Under the pieces are notes generated by a model. It was not told the origin of the DNA and did not search any database. It saw only the letters and a program-made list of their open reading frames with translations. Shown one piece after another: positions 25,747 to 54,809 of a DNA stretch of 64,000 bases (the stretch's first letter is position 1; each line of letters begins with the position of its first letter). The stretch spans positions 46,589-110,588 of IMG/VR virus record IMGVR_UViG_3300024261_002043. One strand, written 5' to 3'. The DNA comes from a virus. The position numbers and the translations under genes were made by a program.

Positions 25747-26538
25747 TTAGCCACTGTGTTTATAACCTTTTTCCTTAGTCTGCCATTCCCATATTAATTT
25801 TTCCCTGTCACCTGTAACGATACCTGATGCTTTAAACATATTATAGTACCAGTCTGCAAGTAATACAGGCACCCTAGCGTCATAATCATCACTCTTCTTT
25901 TGAGTGTAATCAACCAAGACTTCTGACAGATTCGCGAATGTAAAATGTGGAAAAGCCCTAAACCATAAATGTAGATCTTCTGCTAAAGGAAATAAGCGCT
26001 CATACCCACCTAAGACGTTGATCAGTGATCTTGAAAAAACGACAGAAGGATGGCAGATTTGATTTTGACCATACAAAAAGCCTTTCTTAATACCAGCATC
26101 TTCTAGCTGGTATTTTACTGCTTTTCCGAATGTCCCTAATTCTTGAATATTCGAATCTTCGTCTAATAATCTTATTTGAGTACCCACTATATCGACATTC
26201 GGATTCTCTTTAAGAAAAGACATTTGTTTTTGTAGCTTCTCAGAATACCAAAAATCATCTCCATCTTGTCTAGCAATCCAATCACCAGTACAGCGGCGTA
26301 AACCAGTATTTAAGGCAGGTACGATGCCAGGATCTTTACACTCGACTATTTTTAGCTCAAAGCAATTAGAGAATTTTTTTGCTATGTCTATTGTTCTATC
26401 TGTGCAATTATTATCTACAAGTATCACTTCAAAGTCTTTATACGTCTGGTCTGCTACTGATTGTAACGCTCTCTCAATCGTGGATTCGCAATTATAGGCG
26501 GGTATAATAACTGATACTTCTTTCATACTAGCTTTCAT
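25747..26538 (-). CDS. GT2-family glycosyltransferase
   Basis: 263 residues. VSVIIPAYNCESTIERALQSVADQ, EVILVDNNCTDRT and WIARQDGDDFWY form a clean GT2 active site. An extra ATG four codons in (KEVSVII) is another possible start. It overlaps the next gene by about 11 bases. Confidence 0.9.
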   Translation of the reverse strand: MKASMKEVSVIIPAYNCESTIERALQSVADQTYKDFEVILVDNNCTDRTIDIAKKFSNCFELKIVECKDPGIVPALNTGLRRCTGDWIARQDGDDFWYSEKLQKQMSFLKENPNVDIVGTQIRLLDEDSNIQELGTFGKAVKYQLEDAGIKKGFLYGQNQICHPSVVFSRSLINVLGGYERLFPLAEDLHLWFRAFPHFTFANLSEVLVDYTQKKSDDYDARVPVLLADWYYNMFKASGIVTGDREKLIWEWQTKEKGYKHSG

Positions 26539-28462
26539 CCTGCAATTTAATAAACTCTTCTGGGTGTGATCTTTCTATCGACATATGAGGTGTAGGCTTT
26601 GTAAAGTCTATTTTTTCATGAAAAATCCAGCCGCCCATTTCGCTGGCCAGCTTTTCTGACAATTCATCTATATCATTGTCAGTTACATCGCTCCATGCTT
26701 TGTCAAACATCACATTGTTCTCCGCAGTATCCTCAGAGTCGTGCCTGTACTGACTCTTCCAAAATGATGCCCAATGCATCTTATATTGCTTTATTTTTTT
26801 AGAGATATCGTACCAAGAATAATGATGTACACCTGGTATTGATGATATTACATGCTCAAACCAGTTTTCATACATAGTTAAAGCTTCACGATTACCAGCT
26901 AATGCAGCTACTCTTACATTATGGACTTCTTCATTATAGAACCCAACGTGCGGTAACCTTTCCCCAGTTTCAGCATGAATATAATCACACGTGTCTGTAC
27001 CAGGGGCAGCATAAATATTACCTGCGTCATCGAATCTCCTAAGCTCTATAGGGATACCTTGTGTGATGTGAGGCTTATTTCTACTTAGTCTCCACTTCCA
27101 TGGATTAACGTCAACCCTAACTTTCTCTTTCGATCCCCAATATTCTATTACTGGAAGCGATAAGATGTCTGTTACAACAGGAAATGACCTCATCATATGG
27201 ATAACTTTTTCGTAGTCTTCTTCGTGAACAATTTCATCAGCATCCATTTGCCAGCAAAATTCATTAGTGCATAAACTTCTAGCAGTAGCTTTAAGCTTAC
27301 CGTCTGTTTCATACGCAAATGAAGGATGATCATCAGATACTTCAACCTGTTTAATTACAAGGCGAGACTCGCTTCTTGACCATTCCGATAGTTGACTCCA
27401 GGTATCATCAGTTGACCCACCGTCTACAACAACAACTTCATCGCAAAATTGAAGCATCGATCTGACTGTTGCTTTCCAAGGATACTTCATCTTATTAGCA
27501 TTTCTCAAAGTAGTATATCCACTTAAGGTAGGCTTATGTCCATGGATAGACTTAATCGCTCTCCAAAATCTTTCACGAGCAGCGTATAGATAAGAAACCA
27601 TATCTATATGACTTCCTGTAAACCATTCTTCATTTGCATGCTGTACATGCTCATTCAATATTAGCTCACAACCTAACGCCTTTGCTTCGATTACCATTCT
27701 TGGGCATGTGTCTCCTCCACGTGGCAAGTAAACTAAACCTTTTGACTTTGAAAGTTTTTCTAACAACTCGTTATATGGTACATTCCACACGACCTCATAT
27801 TCTAAATTGTTGGTCTTACAATGTAGCTCTGCATCTTCAAAACCTTTAATCCAAGATTTTGACCCTAATACTATCCATTTAGTTCGTTCGTCTTTAGACA
27901 CTGGGTTTTGCTGGTTTTCATTTACCATAGCAAAAAATGAATTATCAAATACGCTGCTTAATACGACTGAATCATTTTTTAGTAAGAATGGAAATCTGTC
28001 GGTATATCTTTTTTCTTGGTCTTCACTCATAAACCATAAGCTTTTAGATCCATGAAAAAAAGCTGACATCATCTTTCCGTGAATTTGATCATGGCAGTCA
28101 CAAGGTACACCAGCTTCTGCTTTATGCTTTTCAATACTTCTGTACTGACAAAATTTATAGTCGTATTCCACAACTGAATAGCTTAAATTTCCGATGATTG
28201 TTGGAAACAGATTAGGGTTCATAGCAGTTGCGTTTGTAAAGACCCAGTGTTTATCAGCAGCTGACTTAAGCATAGCTAACGACACGTCTTTGGAGTGTAC
28301 TTTTTGTACAGTTATATCAACTGCGGACTGAAATAATGCCTCGGTAGTTAACTCAGCACCGCCAACGTAATCTTCTACAAAATAGTCTGCTACAAAAATT
28401 ACGTCAGCTTCTATATCAACTGTTTTTGCAGTTACTGTATTCTCAAATGGACTCTTAAGCAT
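26528..28462 (-). CDS. Two-domain glycosyltransferase (GT4-like plus GT2-like)
   Basis: 644 residues. The first half has GT-B marks: ADVIFVADYFVEDYVGGAE, WIVLGSKSWIKGFEDAE, and LVYLPRGGDTCPRMVIEAKALGC near 250-280. The second half has GT2 marks: EVVVVDGGSTDDTW and CWQMDADEIVHEEDY (metal site), near 345-410. Two enzyme types in one chain suggest stepwise extension of one glycan. It is the first gene of the island's minus-strand transcript, with GGTGAGG before ATG. Confidence 0.8.
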   Translation of the reverse strand: MLKSPFENTVTAKTVDIEADVIFVADYFVEDYVGGAELTTEALFQSAVDITVQKVHSKDVSLAMLKSAADKHWVFTNATAMNPNLFPTIIGNLSYSVVEYDYKFCQYRSIEKHKAEAGVPCDCHDQIHGKMMSAFFHGSKSLWFMSEDQEKRYTDRFPFLLKNDSVVLSSVFDNSFFAMVNENQQNPVSKDERTKWIVLGSKSWIKGFEDAELHCKTNNLEYEVVWNVPYNELLEKLSKSKGLVYLPRGGDTCPRMVIEAKALGCELILNEHVQHANEEWFTGSHIDMVSYLYAARERFWRAIKSIHGHKPTLSGYTTLRNANKMKYPWKATVRSMLQFCDEVVVVDGGSTDDTWSQLSEWSRSESRLVIKQVEVSDDHPSFAYETDGKLKATARSLCTNEFCWQMDADEIVHEEDYEKVIHMMRSFPVVTDILSLPVIEYWGSKEKVRVDVNPWKWRLSRNKPHITQGIPIELRRFDDAGNIYAAPGTDTCDYIHAETGERLPHVGFYNEEVHNVRVAALAGNREALTMYENWFEHVISSIPGVHHYSWYDISKKIKQYKMHWASFWKSQYRHDSEDTAENNVMFDKAWSDVTDNDIDELSEKLASEMGGWIFHEKIDFTKPTPHMSIERSHPEEFIKLQDES

Positions 28463-28558
28463 CTTTTACCTCACCTGGAGTATAGTAAGATGTACGCTGA
28501 GAATGTATACGGCTAGTTTTTTTACTTATTTTCGTGTACAAGCAGAATCATGACAGCT

Positions 28559-28564
28559 ATTATA
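28559..28564 (-). promoter_or_regulatory. Possible -10 box for the glycan island transcript
   Basis: On the minus strand a perfect TATAAT immediately follows the 8-bp repeat array, about 100 bases before the GT4-GT2 start. The position where a -35 box would fall, 17 bases upstream, lies inside the repeats and reads TATTCA. No good -35 is seen, so this is a moderate guess. Confidence 0.35.
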
Positions 28565-28571
28565 TACTGTA

Positions 28572-28625
28572 ACTGAATAACTGAATAACTGAATAACTGA
28601 ATAACTGAATAACTGAATAACTGAT
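28572..28625. repeat. 8-bp tandem repeat, six copies and a partial seventh
   Basis: ACTGAATA is repeated exactly six times from 28572 to 28619, followed by ACTGAT. The array stands between the S74 fibre gene and the glycan-island transcript. Slippage could change copy number and the spacing of the promoter elements (see findings). Confidence 0.9.
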
Positions 28626-28758: not shown

Positions 28759-31700
28759 CTATTCAGCTTCTAGAATCTCTATTCTTTGCTTTATTTCTTT
28801 AAGAGCGTTAATTATGTATACACTAAGGGCATGATATGAAACACCTCGAAGCTTATCTGCTGGTAGGTCCCTACCAGTTACTAATTCAGGTATGACTGAC
28901 TCAACTTCATCTGCTATTAGCCCAGGACTAAAGTGTGTACGATCATCAGGCTGATTAATATCTCTATACAGTCTAGGTATTAATTGGCAGATCTCGTCTA
29001 GTGAATTATTAAGGTCTTGAATGTCTTTCTTTCCTCGTCGATCAGACGTCCATCTTCTAATTTCACCATTGACATTTCCAACGGCAAGGTAATCATAAGC
29101 CCCGGCATCTGAAGTAGTTCTATCTCGCATCCAGTCAGATCTTACCGTTGAAGTTGAGCCAGAAAGAACCATCGCAACATCCGGGCTTACACCAGTTGAG
29201 GTTGAGGATTTAACAGCAAAGTTAAGTTGCCCCTGAGCGTAGTTACCGCGGTCTACATAGATTAAACCAGCCCCAGTATTTCCGGCTGATGTACCAAATC
29301 CGATTCCTGCAGCTGAATGACTATCAAACGAGGTGTTTTGAAAGAACATATCAAAATATTCCGGCTTACCCCATGCACTTGCTCCCACCGTCTCACTAGG
29401 TAATGTTGCTATCTGATCGTTTAGATAAAATGAAGTATTACCACCGGCGGCGCCGGCATCAACAAACTTAAAAGCCACAGATCCAGTCATGCCTAAAGAG
29501 CCAATTTCTAAACGATCTACTGACACCGAGGTACCGGGTGTAGTTGTTCTTAATAATAAATTAGCACCGCTCTTTTTGACGCCCCCAGTTGTATCCCACG
29601 TTTCTGCGGTGATGGCTTTGATTTGGGCGCCTGTATATACATCCCCTCCGGCAGCGTTAGTGGTTCCTCTAAAGTCCAGATTTGAAAGCTCGTCGCCACT
29701 GGACAAGTTACCGTCAGTAGGATTTCGTAAGAGCACTAATCTTGCTGGCGACGCCGCGACTGTACTAGTATGCGCAATTTGTGCATTTGGGCTTAAACTG
29801 TTCTTTACACTAAGTTTGTTATCTATATTTCCAGCACCGTCAAAGCTAAGAACAGTATTACCACCAGAGTCCTTTATATCGTCCCCGTTAATTCGTATAT
29901 CGTTAGTGACCGTTAGCTCGTTTCCAACAGTTAGATTACCAACAGCTTCTATAGTTGAATCAGTCGGTGTTGCATTAGGGACAATAATAAGGTGGTCAAC
30001 AGGTGTACCTTTAGAATTGATATCATTCCCGATAGTAAAATTTTGGTCTGGATGCCGCGACGTTAATATCCAACTATCACCAGCATCATCACTTTTATCT
30101 GCAGATAATGTTAATGTTGCATTTGCATCGTTGGTAGGTTGAACAACAATTAATGATCCTGAAACTGCCAGTTGCCCGGCTATATCAACATTCTTTGTTT
30201 GGTTTGGTATAGACAGCACTTCTTCATTTAGCGTATTCCTAAGAGTGACATCGTTAGTTGTTCCGTCACCAGTTATAATGCAGCCGTCCACAGCGCTGTA
30301 GCCTATAGCAGCTACGTCAGAAGCGCTAGTATCTCCTCCTACTTGTACTTTACCTGTGAAAGAAGAATATAAAGCAGAGATCACTACAGCTATAGACTTG
30401 CTCGCAGCGCCGGTAGGGGTTACACCAAGTCGAATATTTGTCCCCTCTGCACTGCCGTGTGTCCAGGTTTCTGCCGCGTACGCTTCGACATGTGCTGTAT
30501 TTGAATATACTACGCCGCTATCTTTACCACCAAAGGAATATCGACCTATACCATCTCCGGATGCTACATTGACCTTGGAATGAAACACTCCAATTTCCAT
30601 AGGGTCGGTCTCTGATGCTTCATTTCTTAAGTAGAACTGGTTTATATCTGTCCCGGTGATGCTGTGATGAGTTGTATTATAAGATAGATCAGTACCATCA
30701 GAAAAGCTTATCTTATTACCGCTGATTGATAGCTCGTTTCCAACAGTTACGTCACCAGCAAAAACTGCGCCAGGCTCAACCGATGATCCGTCATCACTAA
30801 GAGTTAATGCCGAACGAAATGCATTTACACTAGCTCCAGATGCAGCACCTCTTCTGGCAACTTGAAAAGTTAGTGAGCCACCAACTCCATCGCCTGTACT
30901 TTGTCCTGCGCCTACCGTTAAGCTTTTTCCTGCTTGATCAGTCCCTGCAATTGCGTCAATAGTTATTGAAGAGTTGGTTGTGTTGGTTAACTCTACGTTT
31001 CCTTTTAAGCGCGTCGACCCAGTAACATGAAGTCCTGATCTTGCTGCTACAACCTGCTCGAATCTTGTTTGGACAAAAGCGCTTTCCCCACCCCCTCCGC
31101 CTGGAAACAGAGTAACATGTTTATTACCAGAACTTACATCATTATCGTATAAGCCTCCAGCAACGAAAAAATGTCCAGCAGTACCAACCTGTCCGCCGCC
31201 TGTGCTATTCATTAACAAAGAATACGGAGAGACAGCAGCTGCTGTGAACTGAATATTTTCACCTGCAGAAACCTCTAAAGCCTCTTCTGCTGTTATAAGC
31301 AAATCTCCGTCAGTACCACCGACACCCGATTCTCTTTGTATAAATGATGAAGCGTTGCCAAAGTATAGGGTCGAGGTTCCGGTTGGAGACGCAACATTCT
31401 CACCAATCATAACGGCTTTACTAGCACCTTGTACATGCAGATCAACCGCAGGAGATGAAAGCTCTGCATCTCCGCCGATACCGACTGCACCATTCTTCAT
31501 ATGCATAGTGTTAAAGTAATCCACACCAGCAGCTTTAGTTCCAAACCGTACTCTCCTATCTGAAGCACCACCTTCCCAAATAATCGATGCCATATTAGAG
31601 TCATCTGTACCAAGGTTAACGTAAGCGTTTGTATTGACAACGCTAAACCTTGTGTTCGTAGCATCGTCTGTCAAAGATAAGTCACCACCAATAGCAAACG

Positions 31701-31827
31701 TAGTGTTAGGTGCGCTTGACATACCGATACCAATCTTAGGTCCTACTGCGTCACGCGATGCGGTGACGAATAAATGGTCACCTGTGCTAGACCTTAATTC
31801 CAAAGATCCTGTTGTGTAAATCGACAT
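28759..31827 (-). CDS. Tail fibre with C-terminal S74 chaperone domain
   Basis: 1022 residues. The last about 95 residues (TSDRRGKKDIQDLNNSLDEI...SPGLIADEVESVIPELV...GVSYHALSVYIINALKEI) are a Peptidase_S74 intramolecular chaperone; the Ser-Asp at its start is the self-cleavage site in the family. The body is a series of short beta repeats with GNELSISGNKISFSDGT-type units, typical of a trimeric fibre. It starts inside the stop of the next fibre gene. Receptor unknown. Confidence 0.9.
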   Translation of the reverse strand: MSIYTTGSLELRSSTGDHLFVTASRDAVGPKIGIGMSSAPNTTFAIGGDLSLTDDATNTRFSVVNTNAYVNLGTDDSNMASIIWEGGASDRRVRFGTKAAGVDYFNTMHMKNGAVGIGGDAELSSPAVDLHVQGASKAVMIGENVASPTGTSTLYFGNASSFIQRESGVGGTDGDLLITAEEALEVSAGENIQFTAAAVSPYSLLMNSTGGGQVGTAGHFFVAGGLYDNDVSSGNKHVTLFPGGGGGESAFVQTRFEQVVAARSGLHVTGSTRLKGNVELTNTTNSSITIDAIAGTDQAGKSLTVGAGQSTGDGVGGSLTFQVARRGAASGASVNAFRSALTLSDDGSSVEPGAVFAGDVTVGNELSISGNKISFSDGTDLSYNTTHHSITGTDINQFYLRNEASETDPMEIGVFHSKVNVASGDGIGRYSFGGKDSGVVYSNTAHVEAYAAETWTHGSAEGTNIRLGVTPTGAASKSIAVVISALYSSFTGKVQVGGDTSASDVAAIGYSAVDGCIITGDGTTNDVTLRNTLNEEVLSIPNQTKNVDIAGQLAVSGSLIVVQPTNDANATLTLSADKSDDAGDSWILTSRHPDQNFTIGNDINSKGTPVDHLIIVPNATPTDSTIEAVGNLTVGNELTVTNDIRINGDDIKDSGGNTVLSFDGAGNIDNKLSVKNSLSPNAQIAHTSTVAASPARLVLLRNPTDGNLSSGDELSNLDFRGTTNAAGGDVYTGAQIKAITAETWDTTGGVKKSGANLLLRTTTPGTSVSVDRLEIGSLGMTGSVAFKFVDAGAAGGNTSFYLNDQIATLPSETVGASAWGKPEYFDMFFQNTSFDSHSAAGIGFGTSAGNTGAGLIYVDRGNYAQGQLNFAVKSSTSTGVSPDVAMVLSGSTSTVRSDWMRDRTTSDAGAYDYLAVGNVNGEIRRWTSDRRGKKDIQDLNNSLDEICQLIPRLYRDINQPDDRTHFSPGLIADEVESVIPELVTGRDLPADKLRGVSYHALSVYIINALKEIKQRIEILEAE

Positions 31828-37517: not shown

Positions 37518-37544
37518 TAAAAAAAGAGGGGCTTAAGCCCCTCT
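37518..37544 (-). terminator. Rho-independent terminator (minus strand)
   Basis: A perfect 20-base palindrome (AGAGGGGCTT/AAGCCCCTCT, 37525-37544) is followed on the minus strand by TTTTTT. It ends the transcript of the H1-like gene cluster. On the plus strand the downstream sequence has no T-run, so it is one-directional. Confidence 0.9.
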
Positions 37545-37571
37545 CATAAGTCGCCATCACATATGTGTTGA

Positions 37572-38788: not shown

Positions 38789-39262
38789 TTACTTTGCATA
38801 TGCGTCTGCTAACCATGACGATGCCCAAGCATCTGGTTTAACAACACACCTATACCCTTGAGATTTTACCCAGGATGTTGCAGAAGTAAACACTAAAGAA
38901 GACTTGTACATTTTATTTGGGTTAATATCTAGATGCACGCTGACATCATCTCTGCTGGTATGTGATGAAACAAGATCAGCTAAAAGTAGGGCTCTTTCAA
39001 CCTCACCTAGTAGTCTTAATTTCATATTTAAGAAGTTTTTACGCTTTAGTATTTTTCTAGCAAAGAAGTATGTTCCTCCTTTTCCCGGAGTTATAATCGC
39101 AACTACTATGGCATATACACAATTGTTTTTTACGAAGTGAGAATCACATCCGACATGTATCATGCTTGATTTACCAACACTAGATAGAAACTCTAGCATG
39201 CTACTTAATTTAACAGGCTTATGTTGCGCGTTATGCCAGCTTAAGGAATCTAAGGGTGACAT
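38789..39262 (-). CDS. DUF458/YkuK-like RNase H-fold protein
   Basis: 157 residues. HVGCDSHFVKNNCVYAIVVAI, SVHLDINPNKMYKSS, and YRCVVKPDAWASSWLAD match the DUF458 (Bacillus YkuK) RNase H-like pattern with D-S near the first strand and D-x-N-P later. Biological role of the family is not established. Adjacent to the chaperonin-like gene by one base. Confidence 0.7.
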   Translation of the reverse strand: MSPLDSLSWHNAQHKPVKLSSMLEFLSSVGKSSMIHVGCDSHFVKNNCVYAIVVAIITPGKGGTYFFARKILKRKNFLNMKLRLLGEVERALLLADLVSSHTSRDDVSVHLDINPNKMYKSSLVFTSATSWVKSQGYRCVVKPDAWASSWLADAYAK

Positions 39263-40542
39263 TAATCATCTTCCAATCTAATGATCGCTTTGATATTATT
39301 GATGATAGTACGGTCACTAACTGCTCTTCGTACGGCGGCCGCGGCGTCATTAGCTGGTAAATACTTTATATGATAATTATCAAAGAAATTGCTTCTTGCA
39401 TTTATAACTCCTTGATTCGCGCATCTTGATATGTGGGAGAAAAAAGAGCCAAGTTTATCATCTATGATAGGCTTTTCCTGAGGATCAGCTTTTAGATCAA
39501 GTATGACATTACGAAGAGAGAGCTTGGAAAGTCTAGACTCCAGAATGTCTCTTACATCGTCGACGTTCGATTCATTGAGCTTCTTCTTTATACTAGATCT
39601 TAAGTTGTTAATGCGAGTCAACTGTTGGTCACCTGGTATTATTGACAGCCTTTTGTTTGCTGTGTTGTAAGATACCCTGACGCTTTCGTAGTCCTCAGCA
39701 TCCACTGAACTTAACCTGTTACCTATATCCTTAGTTATTGGTGTCACACCGCATACTGTAGCAATATCCTTAATCTCATTAACACTAGCTACGGAGTCTT
39801 CAACAATGAAAGGTATAACGCTAGTATTTCCCTTTTGCCAGTTAACGAATAGTGTGTTATTAACGTCATCAGAGTATCCTGTAGATACTATAACCGCCTT
39901 CTGCTTCGTATTGTAGCAATACTCTAAGATGTGATGTATCTCACTAACTTCTATTATTTTACCGTTTATGACAAAAACCTTACAGCTACTGAAATCGAAA
40001 TTGTCTAGATAACCTTCAAAAAATTCGCTTAAAAAACAACCAGCTATAAAGCCGCTATCAACCACCAATGTTTCTTCAACACTATTAGAGATCTTTGTTG
40101 ATATACTTCCTGAAGCTCCCGCTACATTAACTGCCATTATTAAGTCGTCCATATTATTAAGCATGAACAGATCATCGCAATCTTCTTTAAGACAATTTAT
40201 TACCTCTGTTGAACCAACACGTCGACCTCTTAATTTTGTGTCGCTTATTATAGAGCTGTCGTTTAGACATTTAATATAAAGCTCTATTGCATGAGGACAA
40301 GCTCTATTTATCTTGACAAGACTAGATATAACAAGGTTCTTGATGGAGGACTCGCTATTGTTTAGCCAATATAGAAATGTTCGGAAAGTATCGATCCACC
40401 CGACATCATAGATAGATGCACCTGCGAGTAGAGAATAGTCTTTGTTTTCTAGCGATTTAGAAAACTTCTTTATGTCTTTAAGAAAGTCACCCTTGATTTT
40501 GTCTAAAGGATCGCCTGTAATGACATCGCTTTTGCTCTTCAT
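39262..40542 (-). CDS. Divergent GroEL-like chaperonin apical-domain protein
   Basis: 426 residues against about 545 for GroEL. Residues about 130-280 follow the GroEL apical domain in order: VEETLVVDSGFIAGCFLSEF (GroEL VEGMQFDRGYLSPYF), DFSSCKVFVINGKIIEVSEIHHILEY, KQKAVIVSTGYSDDVNNTLFVN, and NEIKDIATVCGVTPITKDIG. Residues about 288-345 follow the descending intermediate part (RVSYNTANKRLSIIPG...RDILESRLSKLS, like GroEL REKLQERVAKLA). The GDGTTT ATP loop and the Gly-rich GGG of the equatorial domain are not seen. Inferred to be a folding or assembly factor without its own ATPase. By-eye alignment only. Confidence 0.7.
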   Translation of the reverse strand: MKSKSDVITGDPLDKIKGDFLKDIKKFSKSLENKDYSLLAGASIYDVGWIDTFRTFLYWLNNSESSIKNLVISSLVKINRACPHAIELYIKCLNDSSIISDTKLRGRRVGSTEVINCLKEDCDDLFMLNNMDDLIMAVNVAGASGSISTKISNSVEETLVVDSGFIAGCFLSEFFEGYLDNFDFSSCKVFVINGKIIEVSEIHHILEYCYNTKQKAVIVSTGYSDDVNNTLFVNWQKGNTSVIPFIVEDSVASVNEIKDIATVCGVTPITKDIGNRLSSVDAEDYESVRVSYNTANKRLSIIPGDQQLTRINNLRSSIKKKLNESNVDDVRDILESRLSKLSLRNVILDLKADPQEKPIIDDKLGSFFSHISRCANQGVINARSNFFDNYHIKYLPANDAAAAVRRAVSDRTIINNIKAIIRLEDD

Positions 40543-40552
40543 AACACCTCAC

Positions 40553-40843
40553 TTAATGAAGGTTGGTATCATATTTTTTCTTTTCTGACTCTTTAGATAC
40601 ATCTGTCTTAAATGTTGAAAACAATTGACCTAGCGCTTGACCTAATTCTTCTGCTTGCTCATTTAAAAGCTTAGCAGTGCTTTCAACTTCTTCTCTATTT
40701 TCTTTCTTTTCTTGCATTTCAAAAGCGTATCTACAAAACGCAAATAATGCTGCACAGCCCCCAACAATCAATGAAGTTGTTAGGTCATGCCAAGAAAGAA
40801 TTATGGCAAAAACTAAAAAATACTCTGGAAACCCGAACCTCAT
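40553..40843 (-). CDS. Small membrane protein
   Basis: 96 residues. Two hydrophobic segments near the start (EYFLVFAIILSW and TTSLIVGGCAALFAFCRYA), then a charged helical tail with many Glu/Lys. Between the chaperonin-like and PrkA genes. No family recognised. Confidence 0.65.
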   Translation of the reverse strand: MRFGFPEYFLVFAIILSWHDLTTSLIVGGCAALFAFCRYAFEMQEKKENREEVESTAKLLNEQAEELGQALGQLFSTFKTDVSKESEKKKYDTNLH

Positions 40844-40852
40844 TTTATCTCC

Positions 40853-42778
40853 CTAGCTGTCACGCCATAGGTTATTACTGGCATACACTAAAATTTCTTC
40901 TGCGGAATCAGCTGTATAACCATAATCGTCTATTAGCGTTTGTACCATAGAAGAATATTTTTGCTGTTGCTCATCGTCTCTTGTCTTAGACTTAGTAACT
41001 ATTCTAGCAAGGTCTTTTACAGAGGTTATGAGGTACGTCTCAATAGCTTCCTTAAGCGGTTCGTAAGAAGTGTAGTCTACTACTTCGCTTCTTCTCATCT
41101 TTGAAAACATATAAGCAGTAACGTCAGCCCTGAACCCATCTTTACCAGCTCCACTAACCCCTATCGTAGACTCTATAGCGCGCATGAAGTTTTCATCAGG
41201 GTTCATATCTTCATTGGTAACGCGGTCTTTCATTCTATTCTTTGTCGTATACGCTTCTGCGTTATCAAGATAGTTCTCAAATATTGACTGAGCTTGCTCT
41301 TCATATGCCGATATAAATGCCTTAGCTATTTCATTCTCTAATATTCTGAGATATTCATTTCTGACAACGTTACGAATTAACTCAAGGCATTTGTCTTGAA
41401 ATTCTCTGTCTATAATCTGGTCTTTGACCTGTTTGATCAGCGCATCCATTATTGATATAGGAGTTATAAAGGATTTATCTGAATCGCTTAATGCATTATC
41501 GACGGCTTTCATGATAAATCTAGTAGATATACCCTTCATACCTTCATCATGAGCTTCGTCTCTTAAGTCTCTGATATCGATCTTTTTGACTCTGCCTTTC
41601 TCGACAACTTCCTCGCCGTTATATAATTTAAGCTTAGTAAGAAGGTCACACTTCTGACTCTCCTTTAGTCTACTGAGAACGGAGAACATCGAAGCGACTC
41701 TAATGGTATGTGGCGCGACATGAGCGTCAAAGTTTGATCTAGATAAAATCTTCTCGTATATCTTTATCTCTTGTTCAAGCTCCAATACATACGGCACATT
41801 TATCTTTACCACTCTGTCTAATATTGCTTCATTAGTATGTTCACTCTGGAAGCGGTTCCACTCTGCTTCATTACAGTGAGCCAATATAACACCATCGAAG
41901 TAAAGCATGTCGTGCTTACCCGGGGCCGGTACTCTCTTCTCCTGTGTCGCAGTGATGATGGTATGGAGAAATTCAATCTCGTTCTTAAAGACCTCCACAA
42001 GTTCGACTATGCCTCGATTACCAACATTAAACGCACCATTTAAGGAGAGCGCTCGAGGGTCATCTTCGGAATACCTGTCAAGCTTAGAGATATCTTCAGA
42101 TCCAATTAGTACAGAGACATCTTGACTATTGGCGTCCATAGGTGGGACAGAAGCTACGCCTCTTCTAGCTCTTTGGGAGAATGTGGTTTCCTTAACCATA
42201 AAGTCTTCATATCGGCCGTCGTACTCTTCAAAAAGTAGATGTCTGGCAACAGGAGAAAGATCACCCTCAATATTCACATCTAGCATATCATTGAATTTAT
42301 TCCTTAGTGATCTAGGAACTAGCTGTAGGGGCTCACCACGCTGCGGATCATTCTTGAGATGATAATACGGCTTGCCGTCTAGAGCGCTTTTAATATGCTC
42401 TGTCAGTGCAGACTTACCAGCGCCAACGGGACCCATTAGCAAAAGTACTTGTCTACTTTCTTCTCCCTTAAGCGCTGCTGATCTTAAGAACCTCATTAAT
42501 TTAGATATGACACTCTCCATACCAAAGAATTCACTTTGAAAGTAGTCATACGTTTTTATGTTGTCACCATCGAATAGCTTATGCTTTCGCGGATCAGAAT
42601 CGTCCATTCTAGAAATACCTTCCTCAGCGATGGAGTCATAAAGTCTTTTATGCGCATGATCAGTTAGGGTAGGGTCTTTCTCTACAAGAGAAAGGTATTC
42701 AAGAAACGTTCCTTCAAACTTCTCTTTTTTCTTTTCTTCTCGTTGCGTCTTTATAATATCTAAATAGTTTTTGGCCAT
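40853..42778 (-). CDS. prkA: PrkA-family serine protein kinase / AAA+ ATPase
   Basis: 641 residues, the usual length. N-terminal AAA+ part: FFGMESVISKLMRFLRSAALKGEESRQVLLLMGPVGAGKSAL (Walker A 116-123), the long middle with LDVNIEGDLSPVARHLLFEEYDG and a C-terminal kinase-like domain (KSKTRDDEQQ end). PrkA/YeaG works with YhbH/YeaH and SpoVR/YcgB in bacterial stress and sporulation; all three follow here in tandem (42790, 44091). Twelve-base gaps; one transcript. Confidence 0.92.
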   Translation of the reverse strand: MAKNYLDIIKTQREEKKKEKFEGTFLEYLSLVEKDPTLTDHAHKRLYDSIAEEGISRMDDSDPRKHKLFDGDNIKTYDYFQSEFFGMESVISKLMRFLRSAALKGEESRQVLLLMGPVGAGKSALTEHIKSALDGKPYYHLKNDPQRGEPLQLVPRSLRNKFNDMLDVNIEGDLSPVARHLLFEEYDGRYEDFMVKETTFSQRARRGVASVPPMDANSQDVSVLIGSEDISKLDRYSEDDPRALSLNGAFNVGNRGIVELVEVFKNEIEFLHTIITATQEKRVPAPGKHDMLYFDGVILAHCNEAEWNRFQSEHTNEAILDRVVKINVPYVLELEQEIKIYEKILSRSNFDAHVAPHTIRVASMFSVLSRLKESQKCDLLTKLKLYNGEEVVEKGRVKKIDIRDLRDEAHDEGMKGISTRFIMKAVDNALSDSDKSFITPISIMDALIKQVKDQIIDREFQDKCLELIRNVVRNEYLRILENEIAKAFISAYEEQAQSIFENYLDNAEAYTTKNRMKDRVTNEDMNPDENFMRAIESTIGVSGAGKDGFRADVTAYMFSKMRRSEVVDYTSYEPLKEAIETYLITSVKDLARIVTKSKTRDDEQQQKYSSMVQTLIDDYGYTADSAEEILVYASNNLWRDS

Positions 42779-42789
42779 TTTATCCTCTG

Positions 42790-44094
42790 CTAGATTTCGA
42801 AAGGTTCGTCTTCTATTATTGTGTCAAGTTTGACAACATCACCCCATAATGCGCTGATGTGCCGGCATACTACGTCTGCATATTCTAGTTCCAGGTCTCT
42901 TCCATCATGATCATGAACCAAGCATAGAACATTAGATTCGTCTATATCATCAACCATTATTATTGGAATACTATTACCTCCGACCTGTTTGATTAGGTCT
43001 TCCCTAATATTTTTCCACCCTTGTCCATCACCGACGTCATCTATTTTATATTCATCCTTATGTAACGAATAGCTGAATAGTTCAAGATCTTCACAGTCTT
43101 GTTGCGTCAAGTATTGTCTTATAAAGCTTTCATCGTTTAAAGATTCTCTAGCTATGAAGCACTCTTCAAGCCCGAATCTTTCTTCTATTCTCTTGAACAT
43201 ATGAAAACCTAAGTGGTATGGGTTTATCGATCCAGGATGAGGTCTTATGACTTCGTTGTGTGTCTTTAAGAAGGGTATGTGCATACTAGATGGAAGGTCC
43301 AGATCATGCATTAGTCTATAATGCCAAAAAGAAGCCCATCCTTCATTCATTACTTTAGTTCTAATTTGAGGCATAAAATAATACGCTTCATCAGCCACTA
43401 TACTGATCAGCTCTCTTTGCCAATCTTCTAGATTAGGGCTAACGTCTGCTATAAACGAAAGTATATCTTCTTCAGGTTGTATCGGTATCTTATTATGATC
43501 TGGTACATGTAATCTATTTGAATAAAGCCCGAGCTTTATGTCTTCAACTAATTTATTCTGCTGCTGCTTTTGAGGAACATATTTCTTATACCTTCTAGGG
43601 ACGTTCATGTTTAGAGCGTGCGCTGAATCTAGAATGCGCTCTACAGCCTCTATCCCTATACTAGGATCCTCTATTAAACCATCGACATATCTCTTCGCGT
43701 TACGCATACGTAATATAATATTTTCTGGATGTGTATGACTAAACGTTGCGTTATTCTTAAAGAAATCAGAATGACCGATACAGTGAGCCATGATAAGCAC
43801 TTGAAGGTACATGGGGTTCTCTTCCATTAGGTAAGCCAATGAAGGATTGCTATTTATGATTAATTCATATGGTAGCCCTTGCATACCTGAATTATACATT
43901 ATATGATTTCTTTCAAATGACTTACCGAAACTCCAGTGCGCGTAATGAGATGGCATACCATGGTATGCCATGCTGCCGATCATTTCATAGTAGTCACAAG
44001 TTTCGTATGCTAACTCAAACCAGTCAAGTCCATAGTCTGCTGCCATTTTACACAGCTTTTCATCCCATACTTTTAAATTATTTAGAAAGTTCAT
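42790..44094 (-). CDS. spoVR: SpoVR-family protein
   Basis: 434 residues (YcgB about 510). SpoVR marks: YGLDWFELAYETCDYYEMIGSMAYHGMPSHYAHWSFGKSFER near the start, MPQIRTKVMNEGWASFWHYRLMHDLDL and PHPGSINPYHLGFHMFKRIEE. The family is needed for spore cortex in Bacillus and is stress-linked elsewhere. Overlaps YhbH by four bases. Confidence 0.93.
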   Translation of the reverse strand: MNFLNNLKVWDEKLCKMAADYGLDWFELAYETCDYYEMIGSMAYHGMPSHYAHWSFGKSFERNHIMYNSGMQGLPYELIINSNPSLAYLMEENPMYLQVLIMAHCIGHSDFFKNNATFSHTHPENIILRMRNAKRYVDGLIEDPSIGIEAVERILDSAHALNMNVPRRYKKYVPQKQQQNKLVEDIKLGLYSNRLHVPDHNKIPIQPEEDILSFIADVSPNLEDWQRELISIVADEAYYFMPQIRTKVMNEGWASFWHYRLMHDLDLPSSMHIPFLKTHNEVIRPHPGSINPYHLGFHMFKRIEERFGLEECFIARESLNDESFIRQYLTQQDCEDLELFSYSLHKDEYKIDDVGDGQGWKNIREDLIKQVGGNSIPIIMVDDIDESNVLCLVHDHDGRDLELEYADVVCRHISALWGDVVKLDTIIEDEPFEI

Positions 44095-45284
44095 GAAACC
44101 TCACCTTTAAAAAACTTATTGAATGCAGGCCAGATGTCTTCTTTATTGGCAATTGCAGCTGTTCTTAATTTTTCAGAAGACAATTTGCTAAATACTGATC
44201 CTAAGCTAGTTTCCTGTAGCCACTTCATACGCTCGGCAGAAGGTTCAATTTCACAATAACCGTAGAATTGTAACTTAGGTAATATCTGACCCACTAATTC
44301 TACAACAGCGTCATTATCGCTAGGCCAGTTGTCACCATCAGACGAATGAAATACATAAGAATTCCATGATGATGGGTGGTACCTACTGTCTAATATTTCG
44401 TTAACGACCTTAAGCCCGCTAGAAGCTATTGTGCCACCAGAAGATCCTCTTTCAAAAAAGCTTTTTTCATCAACCTCACTAGCTTGAGACTCGTATGATA
44501 CGAATGCTATTTCAACCTTATCATATCTAGACCTTACAAAGTGATATAATAGAAAAAAGAAGCTTCTTGATAAGAATTTTTTTGTGGTGCCCATTGAGCC
44601 GGATACATCCATTAAGAAGAAAATAACGGCATTAGAAGTCTTCTTTTCTGTGACCTTGTAATGCTTGTATCGTAAGTCTTGCTCTATAAAAGAAAAAGAT
44701 TCTTCTGACTCACTCTCACGTTTTCCAGAGTGTTCTTCTTTCTTCATTCTCTTTATTCGCTGTATAGCAGACTTCTTTTTGTCTAGTCTAGGTCTTATAC
44801 CTTTAGTTCTGTATCCTCTTCTTTTTATCTTCTTTGCAACAACCTGAGCATTTTTTTTCTTTTCAAAATTTGGAAGTTCTAAGTCTTTAAACAGGTATTC
44901 TGCAACTTGCTCTAAAGTTAGTTCAACTTCATAAAATTCTTCCCCGGCTTTATTTCCTGCCTTTTCTGGCTTTCCTTTACCGGCTTTCTTTTTCTTCTTA
45001 CCTATAACTTGACCTCTCTCAAGGTCACTGCCAGCACCGGAACCTACAGAATGATTACCATTCTCTCCATACACAAATCTGTATTCTTTGATACCCCTTA
45101 CAGGTATCTTAAACTTCTTCTTTCCGCTTTCCCCAATAATAGATTCTTCAGCTACTATATTGTGGATGCCTTCTTTAATTGCCTTCTCTATTTTCTTTCT
45201 ATGCCGACCGCGATCTCCTGCGGATCTGTCAGCTATCGTTTTGTGCTTTTTAAAAATAGACATTCGTGTTGTAGGGTCTTTCAT
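44091..45284 (-). CDS. yhbH: YhbH/YeaH-family (DUF444) VWA protein
   Basis: 397 residues (YeaH about 427). AVIFFLMDVSGSMGTTKKFLSRSFFFLLYHF is the MIDAS-containing VWA segment (D-V-S-G-S); the family opening DRSAGDRGRHRKKIEKAIKEGI and the RYKH linker before the VWA domain fit DUF444. Genes in the order yhbH, spoVR, prkA in the direction of transcription. No clear ribosome site before ATG; a TATAAT is about 15 bases upstream (45298-45303) without a good -35. Confidence 0.92.
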   Translation of the reverse strand: MKDPTTRMSIFKKHKTIADRSAGDRGRHRKKIEKAIKEGIHNIVAEESIIGESGKKKFKIPVRGIKEYRFVYGENGNHSVGSGAGSDLERGQVIGKKKKKAGKGKPEKAGNKAGEEFYEVELTLEQVAEYLFKDLELPNFEKKKNAQVVAKKIKRRGYRTKGIRPRLDKKKSAIQRIKRMKKEEHSGKRESESEESFSFIEQDLRYKHYKVTEKKTSNAVIFFLMDVSGSMGTTKKFLSRSFFFLLYHFVRSRYDKVEIAFVSYESQASEVDEKSFFERGSSGGTIASSGLKVVNEILDSRYHPSSWNSYVFHSSDGDNWPSDNDAVVELVGQILPKLQFYGYCEIEPSAERMKWLQETSLGSVFSKLSSEKLRTAAIANKEDIWPAFNKFFKGEVS

Positions 45285-45304: not shown

Positions 45305-45739
45305 TCAGCTGAGTGCAGAATAAAAGTAGTTAATTGGTGCTATAAGATAATTTAGGCAATTTTCGCAAAATTGCTCTTTGTCTACCCAACTAAAGTCTTC
45401 ATGTTCTTGGATACCTGTTGTCGGGTTCTTGGTTATTAGAGGTGTGTTGTCAGTCGAAGCGCAAAAAACTGTTAAGGCACCATTTATATGGGGTGTACCG
45501 GAAAATAATAATTCGTTATCTGATATTATAATTGAGCATTCTTCGAAGCATTCTCTTTTAGCTGTCTGTAACGGCGCCTCGTTATTATCCATAGTACCTT
45601 TGGGTATATCAAATAAACCATCATCACGAATTAACGCTAACATCTTAGGGTTCTTTAGATGTAATGTATCTTTCTTTAGTATTAAGAAACCTGCTCCAGC
45701 CACGCTATTCTTTTTTCTCTTGCTTTCTTCCATAATCAT
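45305..45739 (-). CDS. Nudix hydrolase
   Basis: 144 residues. A near-perfect Nudix box at 48-70: GTMDNNEAPLQTAKRECFEECSI, i.e. G-x5-E-x7-R-E-x-x-E-E, with Ser in place of the final Gly. Likely cleans up or recycles nucleotide diphosphate derivatives (sugar nucleotides, dinucleotides or RNA caps). Overlaps the cupin gene by 35 bases. Confidence 0.88.
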   Translation of the reverse strand: MIMEESKRKKNSVAGAGFLILKKDTLHLKNPKMLALIRDDGLFDIPKGTMDNNEAPLQTAKRECFEECSIIISDNELLFSGTPHINGALTVFCASTDNTPLITKNPTTGIQEHEDFSWVDKEQFCENCLNYLIAPINYFYSALS

Positions 45740-46055: not shown

Positions 46056-46539
46056 TCTGATCCCCACTTTTGTCTGTTAGCCATGATGATGATTGTATTT
46101 TTCCTCCTCCTACATTAAATAAGACTTGGCAGCCAATTTTTTGACATATATCCCATTCTGCGATATCACTAGGTTTAGCTCTATCACCACCCTTTGTAAA
46201 GAATGCTGGCTTAAGCTTGTCAATAGCCCCAATACAATTTTGACTGCCATCATCCCAAATTACGACGGCATCAACACCTCGAATACCAGCAATAATTTCT
46301 GCCCTTTCATCTTCGCACATAAATGGCTTGCCTTTTTTGCGTGTTAAAAAACCATCACCGTTAACGATTATGACTGTATAGCCACTATTTTTTTTGGCCA
46401 ACTCCGTTGTTTCTATAATACATCTTAAGTGTCCTATATGTAAAGGATCGAACCCACCACATGTAGTATATATTGGAGCTGTATACCCACTGTCTTTATA
46501 CACAGAAACATAATCATCAATGCTTTTATAAACTTTCAC
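46048..46539 (-). CDS. HxGH nucleotidyltransferase, cytidylyltransferase-like
   Basis: 163 residues. TTCGGFDPLHIGHLRCI carries the H-x-G-H motif (34-37) of the cytidylyltransferase-like superfamily, close to RfaE-C/TagD-type enzymes; RAEIIAGIRGVDAVVIWD fits too. Donor substrate cannot be told. It overlaps the next gene by a few bases. Not a GDP-mannose pyrophosphorylase by motif. Confidence 0.8.
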   Translation of the reverse strand: MKVYKSIDDYVSVYKDSGYTAPIYTTCGGFDPLHIGHLRCIIETTELAKKNSGYTVIIVNGDGFLTRKKGKPFMCEDERAEIIAGIRGVDAVVIWDDGSQNCIGAIDKLKPAFFTKGGDRAKPSDIAEWDICQKIGCQVLFNVGGGKIQSSSWLTDKSGDQNE

Positions 46540-48158
46540 TTTTTCATACTCCTTCTAAACTCTTGCGGAAATAGAGAACTATTAGAACTAAAGAATCTCT
46601 CAAAATCTGAATCTAAAATATAGGTAACAGCCGAGTCTTCGTTTGATCTTACCGATCGACCTACAGACTGTACTATCGCTTTAGCTGTTTGTAAAGCGTA
46701 CCACCATCTCCATTTGTTCATTTTTTTCTTCACAAGCTTATCGCCCAGATAAGGATACGGCACCTTACATACAATCTGAAATCTGCTAAGATCATCCTTT
46801 AAGTCAACACCCTCTGACATCGATGGAGATATTAGGACGGTTGGCTTTTTAGATCTTTTGTGCTTTTCCAATATCATGTCACGGTTATGTGATCCATGGA
46901 TCAGCAGTCTTGAGCTTCTAATGTTATTCTTTAGAAAATGTGCAATCTTATAAGAGTGGCAATGTATAATCCCTTTTTCGTTATTGTGTTGCTTTAATAT
47001 TTCTTTTACTGCCATCGCCATTCTTGGCAACGTGTCATTTATAGATGATGCGTTCATTTTACCAATACCGCTATAAACTATAGGGCGATTTTCTATAGGG
47101 AATGGAGAAGGAAGGCTTATAAACGCAGCTTCTTGTTTTGGTATTCCCGCGCACTCACAAAATGCGTCTCTATCCAAGATAGTTGCAGACATCATAATGA
47201 CCACGTCACCATAACTATAAAGCATATCAGGAGCGTATGGGGCGATATCTATCGGCTTAAATTGTATTTTTCTTGAAGACCTTTGATCTTCATCTATCTT
47301 ATTTAGAACCCAATTATCCTTATCATATAGCTCTAAAAATCTGCGAACTTTACACACATGCTTATCTAACATCTCAAACTTTTTAGCCACATTAGAAAAT
47401 TCACCAGACTTTATTTTCTCTCTCAGCCCAATGTATTTTTCCATCATTTTCTCTAAATGCTTTAGTTTAGAACTGATAGTAGGTACGTAAGTATCAGTGA
47501 TCCAGTTGATATATTGTAGCTGAGTCATATTTTCTGGTATCGAGAACCCTAGAAAACTAGTGCAAAACTTTTCAGAAAGTGTTACTTCTACAAACTTACT
47601 TAACTCATTATCTACATTGTGGGCCTCATCGATTATTAATACTTGTCTTGGAGTTATCTTACCCGCATATTGCGTCTCTGCTAAGAAGTATGGAAAGTTA
47701 GTTACGCTTTCTTTAGAGTTAAGAAAAGATTCTTTAGCATTTCTATATACACAATTGAATGTGCAAGATTTCCAGAACCGACTCTCCTTCTCGGCGGTCT
47801 TTAATGCCCTTAGACTTTCCCCGCAAGATGTTTTCTTATTAAAGTTGCATGTATAGTTTGACGAAGACTTAATAGACTTCATAGGCCCAGAGAAGCCTCC
47901 GAAATCGCTTACATATTGCTCTTGGAGGATCTTTTGTGTTGTCAAGAAATACGCACCCGGATCTTTGTTACTAGCCAAAGAGTTATAGACGTATCTAGAT
48001 ATTGTAAGACCTATGGCACTCTTACCTACTCCCGTACCGGCTTCAATGATTACGAACTTCTTTCCACCAGTTATTGAGTCTAGAGCAAAGTCTATAGCTT
48101 CTTGCTGCTGGTCTCTAATCTCTTTATACGGAAAATGCTTCTTTATTTCTCTACTCAT
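46536..48158 (-). CDS. XPD/DinG-type superfamily 2 helicase with Fe-S cluster
   Basis: 540 residues from the ATG at 48158 (GGAGG six bases upstream; a TTG at 48170 is the alternative). Walker A EAGTGVGKSAIGL, DEAH box in LIIDEAHNVDNEL, and a HELICc2 end QSVGRSVRSNED. Four Cys between motifs (104, 112, 132 and 136) sit where the XPD/DinG Fe-S cluster lies. Likely DNA unwinding in repair or recombination, 5'-3' by family. Confidence 0.9.
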   Translation of the reverse strand: MSREIKKHFPYKEIRDQQQEAIDFALDSITGGKKFVIIEAGTGVGKSAIGLTISRYVYNSLASNKDPGAYFLTTQKILQEQYVSDFGGFSGPMKSIKSSSNYTCNFNKKTSCGESLRALKTAEKESRFWKSCTFNCVYRNAKESFLNSKESVTNFPYFLAETQYAGKITPRQVLIIDEAHNVDNELSKFVEVTLSEKFCTSFLGFSIPENMTQLQYINWITDTYVPTISSKLKHLEKMMEKYIGLREKIKSGEFSNVAKKFEMLDKHVCKVRRFLELYDKDNWVLNKIDEDQRSSRKIQFKPIDIAPYAPDMLYSYGDVVIMMSATILDRDAFCECAGIPKQEAAFISLPSPFPIENRPIVYSGIGKMNASSINDTLPRMAMAVKEILKQHNNEKGIIHCHSYKIAHFLKNNIRSSRLLIHGSHNRDMILEKHKRSKKPTVLISPSMSEGVDLKDDLSRFQIVCKVPYPYLGDKLVKKKMNKWRWWYALQTAKAIVQSVGRSVRSNEDSAVTYILDSDFERFFSSNSSLFPQEFRRSMKK

Positions 48159-48195
48159 ATAGTCCTCCAATTCTTATTAATTGTATTAGAGGGAC

Positions 48196-54724: not shown

Positions 54725-54809
54725 CATAAGACATACAAAAACCTTGCGGAGATAATATTTATAGATAGCAGATATAAGCAAATACAGCGATGAAGACGAA
54801 AGGAAAGTC

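Follow-up and report, generated by a model that had tools for sequence, protein, structure and literature searches.

The window analysed here, a stretch of 64,000 nucleotides, comprises bases 46589-110588 of the 110,588-bp IMG/VR record IMGVR_UViG_3300024261_002043. It carries intact genes for PrkA, SpoVR and YhbH, all on the minus strand between positions 40853 and 45284 and transcribed in the order YhbH, SpoVR, PrkA (Table 1). A preliminary description had recognized the complete set by its motifs, and this assignment was confirmed: each of the three genes has a curated Pfam match, and the Walker A and MIDAS motifs are conserved in phages and bacteria. The trio belongs to a real phage, as the same record encodes the terminase, the portal and a T4-type major head protein, in addition to baseplate proteins, tail-fibre proteins and PhoH. 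The record represents part of a T4-like myovirus genome, and host DNA is excluded.

Table 1. Features in and around the PrkA-SpoVR-YhbH locus (window coordinates)
Feature	Position	Strand	Match or remark
DinG/XPD-like DNA helicase, upstream of the trio in the same run	46536..48170	-	phrog_2488, 4e-118
Nudix hydrolase, co-directional, upstream of the trio	45305..45739	-	PF00293, 3.4e-7
YhbH/YeaH (DUF444) VWA-domain protein, 397 aa, trio gene 1	44091..45284	-	PF04285, 6.8e-108; TIGR02877, 2.5e-118
SpoVR, 434 aa, trio gene 2	42790..44094	-	PF04293, 3.4e-120
PrkA AAA+ ATPase ("serine protein kinase" family), 641 aa, trio gene 3	40853..42778	-	PF08298, 2.3e-136; PF06798, 6.8e-77
96-aa protein, hydrophobic N-terminus, downstream of PrkA	40553..40843	-	closest relatives only (9/80 loci)
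Divergent GroEL-like protein	39262..40542	-	phrog_5725, 3.4e-13; NCBIfam GroEL, 2.3e-13
RNaseH-like protein, co-directional, downstream of the trio	38789..39262	-	PF04308, 3.4e-22
Strong intrinsic terminator, ends the co-directional run before phoH	about 37522..37545	-	GAGAGGGGCTTAAGCCCCTCTT + T tract

The preliminary description had also read the trio as one transcript on the strength of its order and of four-base overlaps. The single direction stands; however, only YhbH and SpoVR overlap by 4 bp (ATGA, 44091-44094), and therefore the plural was wrong for the trio. SpoVR and PrkA are separated by 11 bp, the Nudix and YhbH genes by 20 bp, and a plausible ribosome-binding site precedes both SpoVR and PrkA. 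Because the homologues of YhbH begin at MSIF, its true start is probably at 45263 rather than at 45284. The terminator sits downstream of 37753, and therefore one transcript probably covers the trio and the genes from the DinG-like to the GroEL-like one. Directly after this terminator and upstream of phoH lies a promoter-like site with an extended -10 element (window:37490-37545). A search for late promoters of the T4 type revealed no octamer TATAAATA near the trio; this octamer occurs once in the window (54756-54763), compared with 6.9 occurrences expected by shuffling, and is depleted rather than over-represented, while the motif TGGTATTATATAAT recurs at few sites only. Elsewhere in the window, a short unit "CTGAATAACTGAATAACTGAATAA..." is tandemly repeated at approximately 28510-28620, in the gap that separates the gene at 26528-28462 from that at 28759-31827. 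No family match was found for the 96-aa protein downstream of PrkA.

The AAA_PrkA domain (residues 24-378) and the PrkA C-terminal domain (residues 380-632) span the PrkA protein, both far above cut-offs, and a solved relative is available (PDB 9xip, E=1.1e-88). The Walker A residues G116-P-x-G119-xx-K122-S123, as well as N303, E306, D321, R322 and R420, are common to phages and bacteria, and the HxNE, DR and GISTR motifs are conserved; the GISTR stretch, at the start of the C-terminal half, looks like an AAA+ sensor-2 motif. In Pfam, only PrkA-specific domains and weak AAA_5/AAA_16 cross-matches were obtained, and no MoxR-type AAA+ domain. The PrkA gene and the YhbH gene lie in one gene run, in the window with SpoVR between them, and all MIDAS residues of YhbH (D226-S228-S230, T285 and D316) are kept in phages and bacteria. 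Its TIGR02877 score of 395 bits is under the equivalog cut-off of 468. In two loci (L260:5453-6662 and L262:5453-6662), YhbH is read in two overlapping frames of 245 and 185 aa, through either a frameshift or a sequencing error.

SpoVR is covered over its full length by PF04293 but scores below the NCBIfam equivalog cut-off for bacterial SpoVR (277.9 versus 679 bits). Residues H53, W54, E77, H104xxGH108, N115, K247xxNE251G and NPY293 are kept from bacteria to the very divergent Thermus phages, with Asn/His variation at some positions; H53, E77, H104, H108, K247 and E251 are among those retained even in these phages. The conserved His/His/Glu set (H104/H108/E251) probably constitutes a metal-binding site. 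This assignment rests on sequence because the AF2 model of SpoVR, although confident (pLDDT 86.9), matched no solved fold in the PDB at E<0.001; in a viral fold library it gave one significant match, of the same length as the SpoVR of phage phiLo. We also considered a gluzincin-like metallohydrolase and rejected it, as HxxGH lacks the catalytic Glu of HExxH, the second motif is NEG and no fold match was obtained.

The surroundings of the trio differ among phages. In the subclade of the window itself, DinG-like, Nudix, GroEL-like and phoH genes accompany the trio, which lies outside the structural operon. In the sister subclade (L245-L292), the trio is embedded in the virion structural operon between the head/neck and the tail-sheath genes. 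Upstream are the major head protein (phrog_138, 3.9e-74), a head-tail adaptor and two further genes, and this head run, at least in part, directly precedes the trio in 17 loci; downstream, in the loci that extend far enough, follow an 831-aa protein, the tail sheath (2.3e-64), the tail tube and the baseplate hub. In L277, the whole run shares one strand. A structural setting also occurs in Thermus phage Lalka27b, where the order is portal, minor head, VWA, SpoVR, PrkA, two small genes and TerL. The trio lies near endolysin and ribonucleotide-reductase genes in phage group G2; a subset of the huge-phage group has PAAR, endolysin and tail-like genes upstream of it. A weak match to the tubulin-like PhuZ (L233:26-1477, 5e-6) lies approximately 6.5 kb upstream of the trio in a phage from a second marine group (223 kb).

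A frequent neighbour of the trio, present in most loci of the window's clade, is a GroEL-like protein (426 aa in the window, about 430 aa in the family) that has the GroEL fold without the GDGTT ATPase motif. Its AF2 model (pLDDT 91.0) matched GroEL structures in Foldseek with E values down to 4e-21 and TM scores up to 0.75 of the query at approximately 13% identity. The family evolves fast, with a mean difference of 0.78 compared with 0.27 for PrkA, yet occurs in 81 loci, and may represent a pseudo-chaperonin. Eight relatives (L034, L036, L038, L041, L048, L050, L054 and L062) carry a normal GroEL of 537-546 aa near the trio instead.

Profile scans of IMG/VR yielded 519 loci with a profile of diverse PrkA proteins and 476 loci with a SpoVR profile. 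The preliminary description had proposed to look for the tandem arrangement in phage databases. Reading with HMMs revealed the complete trio, grouped on a single strand and in only two orders, in 223 phage loci, some contigs having been fetched twice. The order YhbH-SpoVR-PrkA was found in 134 of them (the window's clade and the Thermus phages) and the bacterial order PrkA-YhbH-SpoVR in the other 89; loci without the full set mostly reflect cuts at contig ends or the ORF filter. When retrieval was led by SpoVR, both PrkA and YhbH were present in 78 of 80 loci, and the remaining two end at contig edges; lone viral SpoVR is therefore rare at most. In the record LR756502, SpoVR is remote from PrkA. 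A scan with the window's own PrkA returned 141 loci, of which 80 (65-100% identical) were kept, and SpoVR and YhbH precede PrkA in nearly all of these. Among 50,697 deposited phages, PrkA was found in 16: Thermus phages, four uncultured phages of approximately 600 kb, and LAU1. Given this rarity and the 223 complete same-strand sets, the trio is not a chance assemblage.

Two retrievals led by other phage genes likewise show the trio to be usual in the window's clade. It was found around phoH wherever the contig extends far enough, with the exception of a 12-kb fragment and of a 312-kb relative whose phoH is 39% identical and whose whole record is free of PrkA. Among relatives selected by TerL, PrkA was present in all three records above 200 kb, and the PrkA-less records measure at most 185 kb; most of the latter are likely too short, because PrkA appears to lie usually some 70-100 kb from TerL. 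Terminase genes were detected in 19 of 25 long trio-bearing records, which reach 578 kb, and related records of the window's clade reach 361 kb. Two huge-phage terminase matches run across internal stop codons (G117:C1:61415-62641, TAG and TAA; G114:C1:39259-40434, TAA), attributable to an intron, recoding or error. Tyrosine integrase was not detected in 18 long trio-bearing phage records of 205-578 kb, the window's own record being a fragment. Collectively, the trio is widespread and apparently often core-like in large phages, and the earlier remark that these are seen as host chromosome genes understates their distribution.

In a PrkA tree, phage sequences fell into the window's clade, the Thermus phages, the second marine group, a Bdellovibrionota-like group and a large proteobacterial-like group, in the last of which they are intermixed with bacterial ones. 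The window's clade is supported at 100/100 and stands on a long stem. A single clade of all phage PrkA proteins was rejected (p-AU 2.6e-5), as was a single origin of the order YhbH-SpoVR-PrkA (p-AU 0.003). Phages have thus gained the trio repeatedly; how many acquisitions the tree would imply is limited by sampling, as most bacterial references were taken from plasmid records and a single phylum. A recent capture of the set from one host clade is not supported, since the window's clade has a long stem of its own and the searches gave no bacterial sequence close to it. The best bacterial PrkA, a plasmid-borne copy, is 37% identical to that of the window. The sole GTDB match (L165, PBIO01000025.1, 73%) is a 101-kb contig in a Halobacteriovorax MAG that shows the clade's full phage synteny and therefore represents phage DNA in a bacterial bin, which is at most a weak hint of the host.

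The distance matrices of PrkA, SpoVR and YhbH co-vary (r 0.86-0.97), and the three proteins therefore share a history. Selection is strongly purifying, with a pN of 0.075-0.10 for PrkA at saturated pS. Compared within the same records, PrkA is 79/82/75% identical to that of the window and TerL 75/79/66%. Across the 80 kept loci, the trio is more conserved than the neighbouring genes and ranks among the most conserved of its neighbourhood.

Our preferred interpretation, to which we assign a probability of roughly 0.45, is that the trio works as a single machine in the service of the large phages themselves: PrkA and YhbH form an AAA+/VWA pair that serves SpoVR and acts at a late stage of infection, with virion assembly or maturation as its likeliest task. 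PrkA would act as an AAA+ ATPase ring with YhbH as its VWA (MIDAS) partner; together they would remodel or load SpoVR, the client or effector, which would be the working part and bear the putative metal site, and the chaperonin-like neighbour may provide a second assembly aid. This AAA+/VWA/client chemistry is modelled on MoxR/VWA pairs such as NorQ-NorD, whose AAA+ ring twists the VWA partner so that a third protein receives its metal (PMC13036017). For other jumbo phages, a function of MoxR-VWA pairs in virion assembly has been proposed, and in ATV such pairs are reported to act in tail assembly (PMC7824862). We place the assembly role first because the trio sits among structural genes in two unrelated lineages, and we further count in its favour the linkage and co-inheritance of the three genes, the selection on them, a conservation exceeding that of TerL and the invariant residues of SpoVR. 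Against it count the location of the trio outside the structural genes in the window's subclade and in G2, and the fact that PrkA is not a MoxR protein by Pfam.

A close rival to the assembly role, in second place and plausible though on balance doubtful, is control of the host state: over a long infection, the phage copy of the bacterial stress module would keep a host that is starved or short of oxygen metabolically usable, or hold it in check. After nitrogen starvation, E. coli mutants of yeaG or yeaH show an altered lag, and mutation of yeaG in addition affects metabolic activity and survival (PMC4664914); SpoVR was the top "sporulation" auxiliary metabolic gene of an oxygen-minimum-zone virome, where it was taken as manipulation of the host state (PMC8940887); and the starvation-linked phoH lies close downstream of the trio in the window's clade. 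However, conservation at the level of a core gene is unusual for an auxiliary gene, and so is a position among virion structural genes in two lineages, which points elsewhere. Reading the trio as a sporulation device is weak. The preliminary description had also raised use of the kinase for phosphorylating virion or host proteins, and in this form PrkA would phosphorylate or degrade such proteins with YhbH and SpoVR as helpers. The family name and a reported in vitro kinase activity of E. coli YeaG, for which both domains including the C-terminal one are required (PMC4664914), speak for it, as does a weak ATP-dependent protease activity of B. subtilis PrkA from an earlier report, as cited in PMC13001217. 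Cleanly purified B. anthracis PrkA, in contrast, has no kinase P-loop, undetectable kinase and negligible protease activity (PMC13001217), and the C-terminal half of PrkA opens with the sensor-2-like GISTR stretch, so that we consider this use unlikely.

Slightly less likely still is counter-defence or the breaking of dormancy, in which an AAA+ ring would dismantle a host defence or toxin complex. The spread of the trio across several large-phage lineages and the layout of an AAA+ protein plus adaptor would fit complex disassembly, but such genes usually turn over fast, whereas the trio is highly conserved, and a comparison with PADLOC-DB gave nothing beyond generic AAA+ ATPase similarity. Finally, we regard an artefact, be it a host contig, a prophage border or a misassembly, as having a negligible chance. 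Cases that look like one do occur: yeaG/yeaH of LAU1 stand at the extreme end of its record and resemble a host flank, and Bacillus isolate contigs carry prkA at predicted prophage borders. These Bacillus-prophage-like contigs (L223-L228 and L238-L243) start or stop at prkA/yhbH, and the prkA match sometimes ends at approximately residue 504, a pattern that points to prophage insertion within or beside prkA. For the window, prophage and misassembly are ruled out by the phage genes in its record and by the same synteny, which recurs across many samples in dozens of contigs, and the terminase genes of the long trio-bearing records argue likewise. None of the findings that would have undone the preliminary description (a prophage, a misassembly, missing motifs) was encountered.

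None of the three families is new, and individual phage cases are in print. The bacterial prkA-yeaH/yhbH-spoVR operon (for instance in Sinorhizobium and Legionella; yeaGH and ycgB in E. coli, prkA/yhbH/spoVR in Bacillus) shares families, conserved residues, strand and adjacency with the window but has the other gene order and, in the proteins compared, a longer SpoVR. Thermus phages phiYS40, TMA, phiLo, MN1 and Lalka8/27 carry the trio as the window does; the four that were read have its gene order, and phiYS40 has an extra gene between SpoVR and PrkA. Their trio proteins are only 23-31% identical to those of the window and of separate origin, and the trio of Lalka27b, unlike that of the window, adjoins portal and terminase genes. 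PrkA (ORF30) and SpoVR (ORF28) of the Ralstonia jumbo myovirus RsoM2USA were described as single genes, with SpoVR filed under replication/cell division (PMC8504454). The marine viral spoVR of the ETNP oxygen minimum zone was treated as a sporulation gene (PMC8940887), whereas here viral SpoVR is nearly always accompanied by PrkA and YhbH. The MoxR AAA+/VWA pairs (RavA-ViaA, NorQ-NorD and the MoxR-vWA of jumbo phage group 2.2) likewise combine an AAA+ ATPase with a MIDAS VWA partner acting on a third protein, but PrkA belongs to Pfam families of its own and the third gene is SpoVR. In the open-access literature searched, we found no paper that recognizes the three genes as a module, assigns them core status or describes their placement in structural operons, and papers on marine jumbo- and mega-phages leave the trio genes unmentioned.

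PrkA, YhbH and SpoVR are conserved across bacteria and some archaea, and their joint biochemical task has remained unsettled for decades. The phage version is compact and almost always complete, and its presence in tractable Thermus phages makes this task directly testable. The reading of viral "spoVR" genes in metagenomes also changes: they belong to a three-gene phage machine and are no evidence that sporulation is being controlled. Should the trio act in virion assembly, it would represent a new type of AAA+ assembly factor recruited by large phages. We can also envisage, as a tentative and rather doubtful extension, that phages of at least five lineages independently made the trio a core, ATP-driven device for virion assembly or maturation, and that the bacterial genes are one branch of a general remodelling system; in that case, the AAA+/VWA/SpoVR chemistry could be learned from phages.
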